A stretch of DNA of 64,000 bases from the NCBI RefSeq assembly GCF_001422405.1, contig NZ_LMMV01000001.1:311275-375274 (forward strand). The letters are read 5' to 3'. The notes beneath the pieces were generated by a model. The model made no database searches. It was not told the DNA's origin and saw nothing but the letters and a program-made list of their open reading frames with translations. This stretch comes from Pseudorhodoferax sp. Leaf267. GTDB lineage: Bacteria; Pseudomonadota; Gammaproteobacteria; Burkholderiales; Burkholderiaceae_C. A program made the translations under genes and the position numbers. The stretch's first letter is position 1. Each line of letters starts with the position of its first letter. Below are positions 16,375-22,176 of this stretch, piece by piece.

Positions 16375-18108
16375 TCACCGACCGAACACGTAACCCGACA
16401 AGCCCAGCAGCGCAAAGGCCAACGCCGCCGTGCACGCCTGCCAGAACACGACCGGGTTGCGCTGCACGAGCGGCATGCGCCGTGCGCCGTGGAACGCTGC
16501 CCCGGGCGCGTGCAGGTCGTGCACGAACTCGGACACGGCCTCCTGCCGCTTGCGCGGCTCCGGCTGCAGCGCCTTCGAGAGCACCGCGTCCAGCCAGGCC
16601 GGCAGATCGGGCCGGTGGTGGCGCAGCGGCACGTAGCGCAGTCGTTTCAGGTCCGCCGACTGGCGCAGCTGCGTCACCTGCAGGCCATAGGGCAGCTGGC
16701 CGCTCAGCATCTGGTAGGCGAGCACGGCCAGCGCGAACAGGTCGGACGCGGCCGTGCCTGCGCCACCGATGAAGTATTCCGGCGCCGTGTATTGCAGCGT
16801 GCCGACGATGCGATCGGCGCGCGCGGCGTGCGTGCCTTCGGCCAGGCCCGCCACATGGGCCGATGCGAAGTCGATGATCTTCACCGTGCCGCCACGGTCG
16901 ATCATCACGTTCTCGGGCCGCAGGTCCTGGTGCAGCATCTCCTTGCTGTGGAAGGCCTGCAGGCCCTTGGCCAGCTGCGCGACGAGCTGGCGCACGCGGT
17001 CCAGGTCCGGGCGCGGGTGGTCGGTCATCCACTGGCCCAGCGTCTGGCCGTCCACATACTCCATGGCCACGATCAGGTGCTCGCGCGGGCGCTCGGTGGT
17101 GCTGGGACGCAGCACATGCGGGCTGTGTAGCCGGCGTGCCACCCACTCTTCCAGCAGGAAGCGGTCCAGCGCCTCGGCGTCTTCGCGCAGCTCGGTGGCG
17201 GGCGTCTTCAGCGCCACCTGCGCGCCGCTGGCCTGGTCGATGGCCAGGTGCACCTGACTGCGCGCGCTGGCGTGCAGCTCGCGCACCACGGCATAGCCCT
17301 CGAACAACATGCCGGGTGCCAGCGGTGGCGGCAGCCGCAGTTGTGCGCGCCGGGCCTGCCAGGGCTGGGCGTCATGCTCGGGCAGGGTGTCGATGCGCAG
17401 CAATTGCACGGTGGCGTCGTCGCCGCTGCCGCGCTCGCGCGCCACCGCTACCAGGGTCTGGGCCGCGGCGTCGAAGTCGTCGGGCCAGCAGGCCAGCGCA
17501 GTGTGCACGGCGGCGGCGTCCAGCCGCTCGTAGGCGCCGTCGGTGGCCAGCAGGTAGAGCGCACCGGGCTCCGCCTCCAGGCACCGGTGGTCGATCTCCA
17601 CATGCGCCGTGGCGCCCAGCGCGCGGCCCAGGCAGGACTCGCCAGCGCCGATGTGCACGCGGTGGTCTTCGGTCAGCTGCTCCAGCGCCTGCGCGTGCAC
17701 GCAATAGATGCGCGTGTCGCCCACGTGCAGCACATGCAGCTCGCGGCCCTTGAGCACCAGCGCGCTGAAGGTGCAGCAGTAGCCGCGGTCCTTGTCGAAG
17801 CGCGCATCGCCGCGCTGGTTCTGCGCATGCAGCCAGGCGTTGGTGGCACCCAGCACGCGCTGCGCGGCGCGGCGCACGGTCCAGGCGTCGGACGTGGCGT
17901 AGTAGTCCTCCAGGAAGCCGCGCACGGCCGCCGCGCTGGCGACCTGGCTCACGGGGCTGGAGCCGATGCCGTCGGCCAGCGCGACGGCGATGCCCTTGGT
18001 CTGCAGCGCCGAACCGGTCGGGACGACGGCGCCGTGGAAGTCCTGGTTCGGCCTCTGGCCCCCGGGCTGCGAATGCTGGCCCAGCGTGATGCGAAGCGAC
18101 GGGGCCAT
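16375..18108 (-). CDS. PP2C phosphatase / Ser-Thr protein kinase fusion
   Basis: 577 residues. Residues 1-240 form a PP2C-type phosphatase domain with metal-binding Asp in ALADGIGSS, LATDGAY and GSGDDATV. Residues about 270-530 form a protein kinase domain with Lys301 (VALK), Asp395 and Asn400 in HQDLRPEN, Asp413 in IDFASA and a TAPE motif. A single C-terminal membrane helix spans residues 553-574. HRD is HQD and DFG is DFA, and the glycine-rich loop is poor, so activity may be atypical. Such fusions recur in betaproteobacterial nitrate/nitrite operons. It starts 8 nt after the nitrite channel gene, suggesting control of nitrite transport or reduction by phosphorylation (inference). Confidence 0.92.
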   Translation of the reverse strand: MAPSLRITLGQHSQPGGQRPNQDFHGAVVPTGSALQTKGIAVALADGIGSSPVSQVASAAAVRGFLEDYYATSDAWTVRRAAQRVLGATNAWLHAQNQRGDARFDKDRGYCCTFSALVLKGRELHVLHVGDTRIYCVHAQALEQLTEDHRVHIGAGESCLGRALGATAHVEIDHRCLEAEPGALYLLATDGAYERLDAAAVHTALACWPDDFDAAAQTLVAVARERGSGDDATVQLLRIDTLPEHDAQPWQARRAQLRLPPPLAPGMLFEGYAVVRELHASARSQVHLAIDQASGAQVALKTPATELREDAEALDRFLLEEWVARRLHSPHVLRPSTTERPREHLIVAMEYVDGQTLGQWMTDHPRPDLDRVRQLVAQLAKGLQAFHSKEMLHQDLRPENVMIDRGGTVKIIDFASAHVAGLAEGTHAARADRIVGTLQYTAPEYFIGGAGTAASDLFALAVLAYQMLSGQLPYGLQVTQLRQSADLKRLRYVPLRHHRPDLPAWLDAVLSKALQPEPRKRQEAVSEFVHDLHAPGAAFHGARRMPLVQRNPVVFWQACTAALAFALLGLSGYVFGR

Positions 18109-18116
18109 GCAAAGGA

Positions 18117-18929
18117 TCAGGCGATCTTGCGCTTGGCGCCGGTCTTGTAGTGCGTGGCGTACAGCGTGAGGCCCACGAAGGTCAGGCCGCCCACCAGGTT
18201 GCCCAGCACGGTGGGGATCTCGTTCCAGATCAGGTAGTCCATGAGCGTGAAGTTGCCGCCCAACAGCAGGCCGGTGGGGAACAGGAACATGTTGACGATG
18301 CTGTGCTCGAAGCCCATGTAGAAAAAGATCATGACCGGCATCCACATGCCGATGGCCTTGCCCGATACGGTGGTGGACATCATGGCCGCCACCACGCCGG
18401 TGGACACCATCCAGTTGCACATCACGCCGCGCACGAACAGTGTGAGCATGCCGGCGGCGCCGTGCGCGGCATAGCCCACGGTACGGCCTTCGCCGATGTG
18501 GCCGAGCTTCTCGCCCACCGCATTGGGGGCCTCGCTGAAACCGAAGGTGAAGATGATGGCCATGAACACGGCCACCGTCAGCGCGCCGGCGAAGTTGCCG
18601 CAGAACACCAGGCCCCAGTTGCGCAGCACGCCCTTCCACGTGGCGCCCGGGCGCCGGTCCAGAACGGCCAGCGGGGCCAGCGTGAACACGCCGGTCAACA
18701 AGTCGAAGCCCATCAGGTACAGCATGATGAAACCGACCGGGAACAGCATGGCGCCGACCAGCGGGTTGCCGGTGTTGACCGTGACGGTGACGGCGAAGGC
18801 CGCGGCCAGCGCGAGGATTGCGCCGGCCATGTAGGAGCGGATCAGCGTGTCGCGCGTGGACATCAGCAGCTTGGATTCACCGGCGTCGACCATCTTGGTC
18901 ACGAATTCGGTAGGGGCGAGGTAGGCCAT
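18117..18929 (-). CDS. nirC: Formate/nitrite transporter family channel
   Basis: A 270-residue integral membrane protein of the FocA/NirC family with six expected hydrophobic helices and the FNT signatures NTGNPLVGAMLFPVGF, NFAGAL and GFEHSIVNM. It would move nitrite across the inner membrane. Placement between nirD and the kinase fusion supports nitrite, not formate, as substrate. The start at 18929 (MAYLAPTEF) follows an AAGAGAC ribosome binding site; the frame extends upstream without support. The gap to nirD is 29 nt. Confidence 0.92.
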   Translation of the reverse strand: MAYLAPTEFVTKMVDAGESKLLMSTRDTLIRSYMAGAILALAAAFAVTVTVNTGNPLVGAMLFPVGFIMLYLMGFDLLTGVFTLAPLAVLDRRPGATWKGVLRNWGLVFCGNFAGALTVAVFMAIIFTFGFSEAPNAVGEKLGHIGEGRTVGYAAHGAAGMLTLFVRGVMCNWMVSTGVVAAMMSTTVSGKAIGMWMPVMIFFYMGFEHSIVNMFLFPTGLLLGGNFTLMDYLIWNEIPTVLGNLVGGLTFVGLTLYATHYKTGAKRKIA

Positions 18930-18958: not shown

Positions 18959-19297
18959 TCAGTTCAGGGCGACGAGCACGCGGCCGTCTTCCACGCGCAC
19001 GGCATGCACACGCACCGAGTGTTCGGGCGCCTCCAGGCACTCGCCGGTGACGAGGTCGAAGTGGTTCTTGTAGAGCGGCGAGGCCACGACGATGCGCGCG
19101 CCCAGGCTGCCCACCAGCCCGCGCGACAGCACGCTGGCACCGGACTTCGGGTCCACGTTGTCGATGGCGAAGAAGCGGTCTTCGCCCAGGCGGAACACGG
19201 CCACGTGGCGCGCGTCCACGCGCGCGCAGACGCCGGTGTGGGGCACGATGTCGCCTGTTGCGCAGACGGCGGTCCAGTTCACGGTCTTGGTCAGCAT
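18959..19297 (-). CDS. nirD: Nitrite reductase (NADH) small subunit
   Basis: 112 residues starting MLTKTVNW, with the Rieske-like fold of NirD and the family blocks NVDPKSGASVLSRGLVG and VASPLYKNHFDL. As is usual for NirD, the Rieske Cys and His iron ligands are missing. It partners NirB in cytoplasmic reduction of nitrite to ammonium using NADH. It begins 10 nt after nirB. An in-frame start 45 bases upstream lies inside nirB and was not chosen. Confidence 0.93.
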   Translation of the reverse strand: MLTKTVNWTAVCATGDIVPHTGVCARVDARHVAVFRLGEDRFFAIDNVDPKSGASVLSRGLVGSLGARIVVASPLYKNHFDLVTGECLEAPEHSVRVHAVRVEDGRVLVALN

Positions 19298-19307
19298 GGT
19301 GGGGTCC

Positions 19308-21827
19308 TCAGACAGTGGCGGCAGGTTCGCGCTCTTCGGCACGGGCGGGGCGGATCTGGCCGCGCTCCTGCACGAACACGATGTGCTCGTCGGGCTTGTC
19401 GCTGTTGACGAAGCTTTTGAAACGCTGGCGCACGGCCGGGTCGGTGACGGCGCTCTTCCATTCGCACTGGTAGGTGTCGACCACGTGCTGCATCTGGGCC
19501 TCGAGCTCGGCGCCCAGGCCCAGGCTGTCGCGGATCAGCACGTCCTGCAGGTAGGCCAGGCCGCCTTCGAGACCGTCGCGCCAGGTGCTGGTGCGCTGCA
19601 GCCGGTCGGCCGTGCGCACGTAGAACATCAGGAAGCGGTCGATCAAGGCGATCAGCGCGTCCTTGCTCAGGTCGCTGGCGATGAGCTCGGCATGGCGTGG
19701 CTTCATGCCGCCGTTGCCGCACACGTACAGGTTCCAGCCCTTGTCGGTGGCGATGATGCCCACGTCCTTGCCCTGGGCCTCGGCGCATTCACGCGTGCAG
19801 CCCGAAACGCCGAACTTGATCTTGTGCGGCGCGCGCAGGCCCTTGTAGCGGTTCTCCAGCAGCACGGCGAGGCCCACGGAATCGTCCACGCCGTAGCGGC
19901 ACCAGGTGGAGCCGACACAGCTCTTCACGGTGCGCAGGCTCTTGCCGTAGGCGTGGCCGCTCTCGAAGCCGGCGGCGATCAGCTCTTCCCAGATCAGCGG
20001 CAGCTGCTCCAGGCGCGCGCCGAACATGTCCACGCGCGCGCCGCCCGTGACCTTGGTGTACAGGCCGTACTTCTTGGCCACGGAGCCCACGGCGATGAGC
20101 CCATCGGGCGTGACCTCGCCGCCCGGCATGCGCGGCACCACGGAATAGGTGCCGTCCTTCTGGATGTTGCCGAGGAAGTAGTCGTTGCTGTCCTGCAGTG
20201 CCGCGAGCTGGGGCTTGAGCACGAACTCGTTCCAGATGGAGGCCAGCACGCTGGCGGCCACGGGCTTGCAGATGTCGCAGCCCAAACCCTTGCCGTGCCG
20301 GGCCAGCAGCTCGTCGAAGGTCTTGATCTGCCCCACGCGCACCAGGTGGTAGATCTCTTGGCGCGAGTAGGCGAAGTGCTCGCAGACATGGTTGTTCACG
20401 GCCATGCCGCGGCGCGTCATCTCGAACTTCATGACCTGAGTGACCAGCGGCACGCAGCCGCCGCAGGTGGCGCCGGCCTTGGTGCAGGTCTTCATGTCGG
20501 CAATCGTGCAGGCACCTTCGCCCACGGCGGCGCAGATGGCGCCCTTGCTCACGCTGTTGCACGAGCAGATCTGCGCCGTGTCGGGCAATGCGTCCACGCC
20601 CAGGCCGGGCTTGGCCTTGCCGTCGCTGGAAGGCAGGATCAGGAATTCAGGCTCCTCGGGCAGAGCGATGCCGTTCAGCGCCATCTGCAGCAGCGTGCCG
20701 TATTCGTCGGCGTTGCCCACCAGCACTGCGCCCAGCAGCTGCTTGCCGTCTTCGCTGACGACGATCTTCTTGTAGACCTGCTTGCGCTCGTCCACGTACT
20801 GGTAGTTGCGGCAGCCGGGCGTCCTGGCCTGCGCGTCGCCGATGCTGGCCACGTCCACGCCCATCAGCTTGAGCTTGGTGCTCATGTCGGCCCCGACGAA
20901 GGCGGCGTCCATGTCACCTGCGATGTGGCGCGCGGCCACGCGGGCCATGTCGTAGCCGGGTGCGACCAGGCCGAACACCTGCTCGTTCCACGATGCGCAT
21001 TCGCCGATGGCATAGATGTCGTGGTCGCTGGTGCGGCAGGCGCTGTCGATGGCCACTCCGCCGCGCGGGCCGATGGCCAGCACGCACTGGCGGGCCAGAT
21101 CGTCGCGTGGCCGGATGCCGGCCGAGAACACGATCATGTCGGTCTCCAGCCAGGTTCCGTCGGCGAACACCATGCGGTGCCGCGCGGTGGCGCCGTCGGT
21201 GATCTCCACCGTGTTGCGGCCGGTGTGCACCTGCACGCCCAGCGCCTCGATCTTGTGGCGCAGCACGCGGCCGCCGCCTTCGTCCACCTGCACGGCCATG
21301 AGCCGCGGCGAGAACTCGACGACATGTGTCTGAAGGCCCAGGTCGCGCAAGGCCTTGGCGCATTCCAGGCCCAGCAGCCCGCCGCCGATGACCACGCCGC
21401 TTTTGGACTTGGCGCCCGCGGCGCGCATGCCTTCCAGGTCTTCGATGGTGCGGTAGACGAAGCAGGCGTCGCGGTCGCGGCCCGGCACGCCCGGCACGAA
21501 GGGGTTGGAGCCCGTGGCCAGCACCAGCTTGTCGTAGGGCAGCACTTCGCCCTCCAGCGTGGTCACGGTGCGGTTGCGCCGCTCCACGGCGACGGCGCGC
21601 GCGGCCAGGCGCAGCTTGAAGCCGCTCTTGTCGAAGAAGCCGGCTTCGACGAGCGAGAGTTCCTCGGCCGTCTTGCCGCTGAAGAACTCGGACAGGTGCA
21701 CGCGGTCGTAGGCGGCGCGCGGCTCTTCGCACAGCACGGTCACGTCCAGGTCTGGCAGGCCGCTTTCGGCCAGGCTTTCGAGGAACTTGTGGCCCACCAT
21801 GCCGTGGCCGACGAGGATGATCTTCAT
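19308..21827 (-). CDS. nirB: Nitrite reductase (NADH) large subunit
   Basis: 839 residues starting MKIILVGHGMVGHKFL. In order: an FAD/NAD(P) pyridine nucleotide oxidoreductase module (residues about 1-330), a BFD-like [2Fe-2S] region (CSCNS ... CGGC), ferredoxin-like half domains, and the siroheme/[4Fe-4S] domain with Cys in GSTWCRYG and SGCTRECAEAQG. It reduces nitrite to ammonium in the cytoplasm. It is the first gene of the operon nirB-nirD-nirC-kinase-photolyase and is preceded by a 226-base leader with a consensus sigma-54 promoter. The frame extends 27 residues upstream without a ribosome binding site. No nitrate reductase gene is in the window. Confidence 0.95.
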   Translation of the reverse strand: MKIILVGHGMVGHKFLESLAESGLPDLDVTVLCEEPRAAYDRVHLSEFFSGKTAEELSLVEAGFFDKSGFKLRLAARAVAVERRNRTVTTLEGEVLPYDKLVLATGSNPFVPGVPGRDRDACFVYRTIEDLEGMRAAGAKSKSGVVIGGGLLGLECAKALRDLGLQTHVVEFSPRLMAVQVDEGGGRVLRHKIEALGVQVHTGRNTVEITDGATARHRMVFADGTWLETDMIVFSAGIRPRDDLARQCVLAIGPRGGVAIDSACRTSDHDIYAIGECASWNEQVFGLVAPGYDMARVAARHIAGDMDAAFVGADMSTKLKLMGVDVASIGDAQARTPGCRNYQYVDERKQVYKKIVVSEDGKQLLGAVLVGNADEYGTLLQMALNGIALPEEPEFLILPSSDGKAKPGLGVDALPDTAQICSCNSVSKGAICAAVGEGACTIADMKTCTKAGATCGGCVPLVTQVMKFEMTRRGMAVNNHVCEHFAYSRQEIYHLVRVGQIKTFDELLARHGKGLGCDICKPVAASVLASIWNEFVLKPQLAALQDSNDYFLGNIQKDGTYSVVPRMPGGEVTPDGLIAVGSVAKKYGLYTKVTGGARVDMFGARLEQLPLIWEELIAAGFESGHAYGKSLRTVKSCVGSTWCRYGVDDSVGLAVLLENRYKGLRAPHKIKFGVSGCTRECAEAQGKDVGIIATDKGWNLYVCGNGGMKPRHAELIASDLSKDALIALIDRFLMFYVRTADRLQRTSTWRDGLEGGLAYLQDVLIRDSLGLGAELEAQMQHVVDTYQCEWKSAVTDPAVRQRFKSFVNSDKPDEHIVFVQERGQIRPARAEEREPAATV

Positions 21828-21983
21828 GTGGAGTCCTGCACGTTCGGATCGACACGAAGGGTGCAGGAGACTGCGCCTCGGCCGACCCTGGCGGTGGCGC
21901 TTGCGCATCCGTCCGCCGTGGGGTTGATGAACTTGGAACGTCCGCCGCGCCGGGCCTAGAGGGGCTTAGAGTGCGTGCGGGGT

Positions 21984-22050
21984 TCCGCCATCATTGGCGG
22001 AGGGTTGGGCGGCGTGGGGGCCGCCCGGTCCGGGGCAACGCTGCCTCGGA
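21984..22050 (-). promoter_or_regulatory. Candidate ANTAR (NasT/NasR-type) leader RNA of nirB
   Basis: On the transcribed strand, P1 (22050-22029) has a stem TCCGAGGC/GCCCCGGA with one mismatch and a hexaloop AGCGUU. P2 (22001-21984) has a stem TCCGCC/GGCGGA and a hexaloop AAUGAU. Both loops carry A at position 1 and G at position 4, the feature recognised by ANTAR antiterminators. A third hairpin of 7 pairs (22026-22007, loop CCCCAC) lies between them. P1 starts about 3 nt after the predicted transcription start. The P1-P2 spacing is longer than usual and no U-run terminator follows, so the call is tentative. Confidence 0.5.
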
Positions 22051-22063
22051 ACGCAGGAGACAG

Positions 22064-22079
22064 TGCAAGTGCCGTGCCA
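22064..22079 (-). promoter_or_regulatory. Sigma-54 promoter of the nirB operon
   Basis: Read on the minus strand, TGGCACG-GCAC-TTGCA matches the sigma-54 (RpoN) consensus TGGCACG-N4-TTGCW at every defined position with exact -24/-12 spacing. Transcription would start near 22053, giving a leader of about 225 nt before nirB. This fits nitrogen-status control of nitrite assimilation through NtrC (inference). Confidence 0.8.
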
Positions 22080-22176
22080 CGCAAATACTCATCAAATGAG
22101 GCTTTTCGCGCGCTGGCACGGGGCATGGCCTGCCAACTTGGTGCGCTGGCTCCCCAAGTCGGGGCGCACAACGCAC

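Follow-up and report, generated by a model that had tools for sequence, protein, structure and literature searches.

How can a pair of hairpins of the type targeted by ANTAR proteins regulate a nitrite reductase gene when no terminator is visible behind them? The question is raised by the leader of about 225 nt that precedes nirB in the window, by which we mean the whole 64,000-nt stretch of Pseudorhodoferax sp. Leaf267 DNA under analysis. The coding part of the locus comprises:

19308-21827, minus strand: nirB, nitrite reductase large subunit (domains Pyr_redox_2, Fer2_BFD and NIR_SIR)
18959-19342, minus strand: nirD ORF (Rieske_2)
18117-18929, minus strand: nirC/focA-type formate-nitrite transporter (domain match)
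16375-18150, minus strand: fused PP2C phosphatase/protein kinase (domain match), the next gene after that of the nitrite transporter and in the same direction

The nirB start codon was taken at 21827, about 155 nt beyond the second hairpin (P2); an upstream candidate, the ATG at 21908, was dropped because the leaders of congeners have no such ATG. From the promoter onward, the leader contains:

22064-22079, minus strand: sigma-54 element TGGCACG-N4-TTGCA, an exact match
22030-22049, minus strand: P1 hairpin CCGAGGC[AGCGUU]GCCCCGG, hexaloop at 22042-22037, one A-C mismatch
22007-22026, minus strand: extra 7-bp hairpin GGGCGGC[CCCCAC]GCCGCCC, inside the P1-P2 linker
21984-22001, minus strand: P2 hairpin UCCGCC[AAUGAU]GGCGGA, hexaloop at 21995-21990

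The exact sigma-54 element that a first-pass annotation had placed upstream of nirB is indeed present, the minus strand from 22079 to 22064 reading TGGCACG-GCAC-TTGCA with zero mismatches. Taken alone the site is near chance and unremarkable, because with one mismatch allowed the 64-kb window holds two matches against 0.69 expected and 13 of 100 shuffles reach two; its position and its recurrence before nirB in relatives carry the argument. A match to at least 9 of the 12 consensus positions lies no more than 700 nt upstream of nirB in 70 of the 79 usable loci, these being the best 80 of 593 confirmed relatives, obtained by scanning genome contigs with NirB, less one (L058) that was too short. 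The nearest locus among these best 80 of 593 is that of Pseudorhodoferax aquiterrae (91%). Transcription presumably starts at about 22053, which would make the first paired base of P1 position +5.

Several leader sets underlie the comparisons that follow. A P2 candidate, chosen with a preference for A1, A2 and G4, was assigned in 69 of 86 leaders. Terminators and folds were read in 67 leaders, in which a purine at loop position 1 and G4 were required, and removal of the doubtful L118, L074, L076, L085 and L065 gave a set of 62. A set of 60 omits L052 and L059 from the 62, and a P2-filtered set of 59 omits the near-duplicates L093, L014 and L061.

Together with the -24/-12 element, the genome encodes both RpoN and NtrC, the other components expected of an NtrC-activated sigma-54 promoter. 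A possible activator site also lies upstream:

22129-22145, minus strand: weak NtrC-like palindrome CGCACCAAGTTGGCAGG, separated by 66 nt from the -24 element downstream

In the window this palindrome agrees with 9 of 14 consensus positions, and 28% of shuffles are equally good. Among relatives, NtrC-like palindromes upstream of the promoter reach a mean score of 10.5 against 8.1 for shuffled sequence, and in 43 of the 60 leaders, the window's own not among them, the site is reached by at most 5% of mononucleotide shuffles.

Behind the promoter stand the two hairpins with A1/G4 hexaloops noted in the first pass, AGCGUU in P1 and AAUGAU in P2. The minimum-energy fold contains all three hairpins at -43.3 kcal/mol, a stability that none of 200 shuffles reaches (z -4.8). 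Since this fold pairs A1 with U6 in both loops and leaves predicted free loops of 4 nt, the hexaloop is the reading that opens one A-U pair; the same pair is possible in 14 of 62 P2 loops. On the hexaloop reading, the leader has the elements by which Ramesh 2012 defines an ANTAR target, namely a pair of hairpins, each with a stem of 3 bp or more and a 6-nt loop, and A1 and G4 in both loops; for the linker that definition allows a variable length. The P1-P2 linker is 28 nt long, of which 8 nt are unpaired once the extra hairpin folds. In the eut leaders the linker measures 5-12 nt, and 3, 14 or +20 nt are harmful (PMC3369931, PMC8934654); a 20-nt extension abolished EutV antitermination (PMC8934654). 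Unless the extra hairpin shortens it, the linker in the window exceeds what EutV tolerates in eutP, a point against the NasR reading; by analogy, that hairpin may restore the P1-P2 spacing. It had been remarked upon as an oddity, and it does form in the minimum-energy fold, but it is not peculiar to this genome: in the five leaders from the same genus GGGCGG pairs with CCGCCC in the corresponding position.

The case for a conserved recognition element is made by the relatives. Within the 114 nt after the sigma-54 element, and for stems of 5 bp or longer, A1/G4 appears in 68 of 105 six-base loops but in only 6 of 195 loops of 4, 5, 7 or 8 nt (35 hairpins with 3-nt loops, which cannot hold G4, were left out of the 195). 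Counted by leader, the P1 zone holds a purine-1/G4 hexaloop in 51 of 59 and an A1/G4 hexaloop in 38 of 59, whereas four control zones give 1-7 and 0-5 of 59, respectively; counted by hexaloop candidate, the figures are 56 and 38 of 64, against 46 and 14 of 326 downstream. The P2 loop carries A1, A2 and G4 in 62 of the 69 leaders with a P2 candidate, a figure helped by the preference for these letters in choosing candidates. P1 of the relatives retains G4 better than A1, which fits G4 as the only base-specific contact in the EutV-RNA structure (PMC8934654). In an alignment of 42 hand-chosen P1-P2 segments from other genera, Pseudorhodoferax excluded, covariation over P1 and P2 is 0.303 against 0.184 in shuffled alignments (0 of 500 as high) and at most 0.184 in slid versions; its P1 loops were partly picked by eye, which favours the motif, and the hexaloop and zone counts are independent of that choice. 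The loops and stems, whose conservation had been named as a check, are therefore conserved in other genera, with covariation beyond shuffles and slides.

Within the genus the picture is mixed. The five same-genus leaders keep P2, the linker hairpin and the competing helix (P3) described below, but their P1 loop is GCCGUA, which keeps G4 and has G1 in place of A1; this counts against the NasR reading; either A1 would be dispensable or P1 has drifted in these species. Separately, two Delftia leaders (L022 and L024) are only about 55-59 nt long; no P2 was found in either, the sigma-54 element is kept and an ANTAR protein is encoded.

The P1-P2 alignment was turned into a covariance model, which finds the window element with 35.7 bits (E 8e-6 over 108.5 kb) and treats the extra hairpin as a linker insertion; the best match outside nirB leaders in that search reaches 18.2 bits. 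In the own 6.5-Mb genome the window element ranks first (35.7 bits, E 4.8e-4). The second-best match there (G000:C22:5704-5770, minus strand; 27.6 bits, E 0.029) may have arisen by chance. When 149 genomes were searched, E 1e-3 was attained by six matches, that of the window among them, and each sits directly before a nirB that is 79-100% identical in the compared stretch; the five besides the window's may come from near the genomes on which the model was built. Among 14 weaker loci (L127-L140), only L134 precedes nirB. The congener nirB leaders score 23-28 bits, at genome scale only E 0.03-0.26, and in three that were inspected the model aligned a false P1. The leader of nrtA, the NrtA-type gene of the same genome, was not found by the model, with nothing above 10.4 bits on its contig, so the own nirB and nrtA leaders differ in sequence.

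Which protein would read these hairpins? The first-pass interpretation hinged on an ANTAR protein being encoded in the genome, and one is. A single ANTAR domain was found, in a 404-aa protein that combines PF08376 (NIT, E 1.8e-52) with PF03861 (ANTAR, E 3.9e-19), the domain pair of NasR. The alternative regulator that had been suggested for inspection, NasT with NasS, was rejected because this sole ANTAR match is a NIT-ANTAR protein; no NasT was found in the genome. The own nasR lies directly upstream of nrtA, on a contig other than the window's. Near this nasR/nrtA pair is a second, distant NirB (G000:C2:138609-139208, minus strand), 37% identical over the compared stretch. Among the genomes of the best 80 loci, an ANTAR domain was sought in 50 and a NIT domain in 40: ANTAR was present in 50 of 50, against 0 of 14 control genomes, and NIT and ANTAR occurred in one frame in 27 of 40. 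In the remaining 13 of 40 no such frame was seen, and other ANTAR proteins must therefore serve there.

Gene order is informative as well. Downstream of nirB, on the same strand and roughly 0.4-1.2 kb after it, 18 of the best 80 of 593 loci carry a nasR homologue, whereas only one of these 80 (L073) carries it upstream and five further loci among them have partial, weaker matches upstream; the homologues near nirB are 37-41% identical over about 400 aa. As far as position can tell, this links NasR to nirB in those relatives, while the own nasR lies away from nirB. The same arrangement bears on a less specific reading of the hairpins, in which they would be stable protectors of the 5' end of the message whose A1/G4 letters arose by chance. 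Genomes of this kind often have stable, GC-rich hairpins at 5' ends, and an Rfam search of the leader returned nothing at gathering threshold. The confinement of A1/G4 enrichment to hexaloops at two fixed places, together with the presence of a full-length nasR homologue near nirB at 19 of those 80 loci, makes this reading very improbable. A sub-threshold Rfam match to Chlorobi-1 (21979-22045, plus strand; 25.9 bits against a threshold of 50) is the antisense of the same GC-rich hairpins and was rejected.

The remaining difficulty is what the hairpins would switch. No U-run terminator had been visible in the first pass, and none follows P2 in the window. What does exist downstream is a helix that competes with P2:

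21927-21994, minus strand: P3 competing helix, GGAAC (21986-21982) with GUUCC (21939-21935)

P3 uses part of the P2 loop and the P2 3' arm. The 3' arm can pair downstream in many leaders (GGCGGAAC with GUUCCAACC) and does so in 42 of 62 minimum-energy folds, against 20.7 expected. Over an alignment of 29 hand-chosen leaders, 83.7% of P3 cells are paired and covariation is 0.272 against 0.189 in shuffled alignments (0 of 500 as high) and at most 0.124 in slid ones; because the P3 structure had itself been obtained by folding these sequences, the slid controls lean in its favour. Both partners have changed in 6 of 8 pairs of the inner helix and in one pair of the basal helix, where most pairs are invariant or wobble. 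RNAalifold on the same alignment returned P2 and a weak downstream hairpin and did not choose P3. For the window by itself, the P3 fold of 21926-21995 has -25.2 kcal/mol, a value matched by 13 of 200 shuffles (z -1.6), and neither here nor in a second test (z -0.28) is it clearly more stable than shuffled sequence. A hairpin mutually exclusive with P2, as in a nasF-type attenuator, is thus found across the relatives and is modest for the window alone; the U-tract of such an attenuator is absent after P3 in the window.

This lack appears to be a property of nirB leaders. In the 37 of 62 leaders with a strict P3 arm motif, the 10 nt after it contain 1.5 T on average and at most 4 (a looser motif, present in 42 leaders, matched elsewhere in some, and the stricter count is quoted). 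A terminator detector flagged 10 of 67 nirB leaders, of which three are credible by eye (L059, L066 and L118); it missed the UUCUU tails of L055, L063 and L097. L118 belongs to a more distant nirB. Applied to nrtA leaders (36 of 39 genomes matched; 30 loci and the own genome read), the same detector found U-tract terminators in 26 of 31, mostly overlapping P2, including that of the own genome, AACGGCGTCC...GGACGCCGTT followed by TTGTTTTT. Because 26 of 31 nrtA leaders keep the U-tract, its lack is largely specific to nirB. The suggestion that the mechanism could differ from classical attenuation consequently holds in part: there is a competing helix, but it has no U-tract behind it.

A small group of relatives departs from this division. 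Five nrtA leaders (L144, L147, L151, L159 and L165, from the genomes of L054, L063, L055, L059 and L066) are U-less with the competing arm kept, and none of these five genomes shows NIT and ANTAR in one frame. In L055, L059, L063 and L066 a nirB hairpin is followed by UUCUU or UUUUU, and in most folds these T-tailed hairpins bypass the P2 3' arm. The type of leader may thus change along with the type of regulator, as judged from this small group; nirB leaders without a U-tract are likewise present in genomes that showed no NIT-ANTAR frame (L019 and L056). Six other nrtA leaders (L141, L143, L145, L149, L158 and L167) list three A1/G4 hexaloop hairpins and not two.

Conservation, recovery by the covariance model and the presence of an ANTAR gene support the central proposal of the first-pass annotation, an ANTAR-type leader upstream of nirB. 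We consider it likely that this leader is started from the sigma-54 promoter, probably read by NasR, and switched by P3 as the off state, as a variant without a standard terminator. A sigma-54 promoter probably activated by NtrC under nitrogen limitation would start the leader, of which P1 and P2 would be the target of NasR, the only ANTAR protein found in the genome. In the presence of nitrate or nitrite, NasR would bind the emerging P1 and P2 and hold P2; when NasR is not bound, the P2 3' arm would pair downstream into P3. We infer from this arrangement that the operon may be doubly gated, by nitrogen status and by nitrate or nitrite. As P3 has no U-tract, the off state would most likely not be a standard intrinsic terminator.

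Three outputs of such a switch can be weighed. Our first guess, slightly ahead, is Rho-dependent termination in the untranslated C-rich leader: an unbound leader would be open to Rho, and NasR, by favouring P2 over P3, would block it. Besides the missing U-tract, the composition of the window leader fits this idea (42% C and 29% G; one 78-nt stretch with 51% C and 23% G, a C excess of 0.28 against a mean of 0.159 in 62 nirB leaders), as do the 93-124 untranslated nt after the P3 arm motif in the 34 leaders where it was located. On average, however, nirB leaders exceed nrtA leaders in C excess by little (0.159 against 0.133), some relatives have short leaders, with 65-71 nt from P2 to the start codon (L045, L040 and L017), a rut site is unprovable from sequence, and a literature search joining ANTAR, Rho-dependent termination and nitrate assimilation gave nothing. 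We regard Rho as a real possibility that falls short of an even chance. The broader proposition, that a NasR-type nirB leader extends across the Comamonadaceae and neighbouring betaproteobacteria, with a toggle between P2 and a U-less P3 that decides Rho-dependent termination in place of an intrinsic terminator, is more tentative still.

The second output would keep ordinary ANTAR attenuation, with P3 a degenerate intrinsic terminator that works without a U-tract. P3 does occupy the place expected of an ANTAR terminator and takes the P2 3' arm, and it is in keeping with such degeneration that the nrtA leaders of five relatives are also U-less with the competing arm kept and that four of the same genomes have a compact nirB hairpin followed by UUUUU or UUCUU. 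The retention of the U-tract in 26 of 31 nrtA leaders, the scarcity of T behind the arm motif and the fact that the T-tailed nirB hairpins mostly do not use the P2 3' arm make this unlikely in our view. The third would target either translation or RNA decay; a hairpin that covers the ribosome-binding site of nirB could be one means, and the window has a candidate:

21834-21868, minus strand: possible hairpin over the ribosome-binding site (UCCUGCAC / GUGCAGGA), 8 bp, weak

Stems of at least 7 bp occur at this place in 20 of 60 leaders, and Ramesh 2012 suggests translational control for terminator-less matches. The candidate in the window is nevertheless equalled by 9% of shuffles, and in only 7 of 60 leaders does the stem beat 95% of them, so that a Shine-Dalgarno hairpin is unsupported as a general device. 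The P3 arm, moreover, lies 93-124 nt from the start codon (34 leaders), and the leader length after P2 ranges from 65 to 186 nt. We therefore doubt the third output about as much as the second, and take P3 without a standard terminator, possibly acting through Rho, as the preferred reading in what follows.

Several known systems combine parts of this design. Control of nirBD by sigma-54 and an ANTAR protein is already described for the Pseudomonas leader NalA, which is started by sigma-54/NtrC and controlled by NasT/NasS (PMC12830290). The likeness lies in the sigma-54/NtrC promoter, the nirBD operon and an ANTAR protein that binds the leader to allow transcription; the regulator differs, being NasT with NasS there whereas a NIT-ANTAR protein is the only ANTAR protein found here, and so does the outcome, a terminator loop by the description in the review, against no U-tract here. 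Klebsiella NasR with its two-hairpin nasF leader is likewise established (PMC7496416, PMC3369931), and shares with the present leader a NIT-ANTAR protein, two A1/G4 hexaloop hairpins, the competition of P2 with a downstream helix and a C:G pair that closes both loops, which SELEX with NasR also gave; it has an intrinsic terminator and serves the nas operon, in contrast to the nirB gene, missing U-tract and linker hairpin here. The EutV-controlled eut leaders of Enterococcus present a dual hexaloop target as well, but with a two-component EutV, a linker of 5-12 nt and intrinsic terminators (PMC3369931, PMC8934654).

What appears to be new is thus the combination of a nirB leader of NasR type and a competing helix that lacks a U-tract. 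In the literature searched, which covers few subscription papers and is accordingly a weak guide to novelty, no betaproteobacterial nirB was described as having a NasR leader of this U-less kind. Matches to the ANTAR motif upstream of nitrite reductase genes had already been reported by Ramesh 2012. In the first search of that study, only about 30% of the ANTAR targets predicted in organisms that encode ANTAR proteins overlapped an intrinsic terminator, and the role of the remaining, terminator-less ones was left open. The conserved leader set provides natural variants for this question, including the genomes with U-less nrtA and T-rich-tailed nirB leaders. A further comparison is found within the genome itself. 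The own nrtA leader (L002:8459-8627, minus strand) resembles that of nirB in its sigma-54 element, in its two hairpins with AACGGC hexaloops and in the same available NasR, and differs in a classic terminator that overlaps P2 and is followed by TTTTGTTTTT. One genome thus has an nrtA leader of the classic type alongside a nirB leader that is U-less, both apparently served by one NasR, and the terminator-less question is therefore testable with one protein and an internal control.
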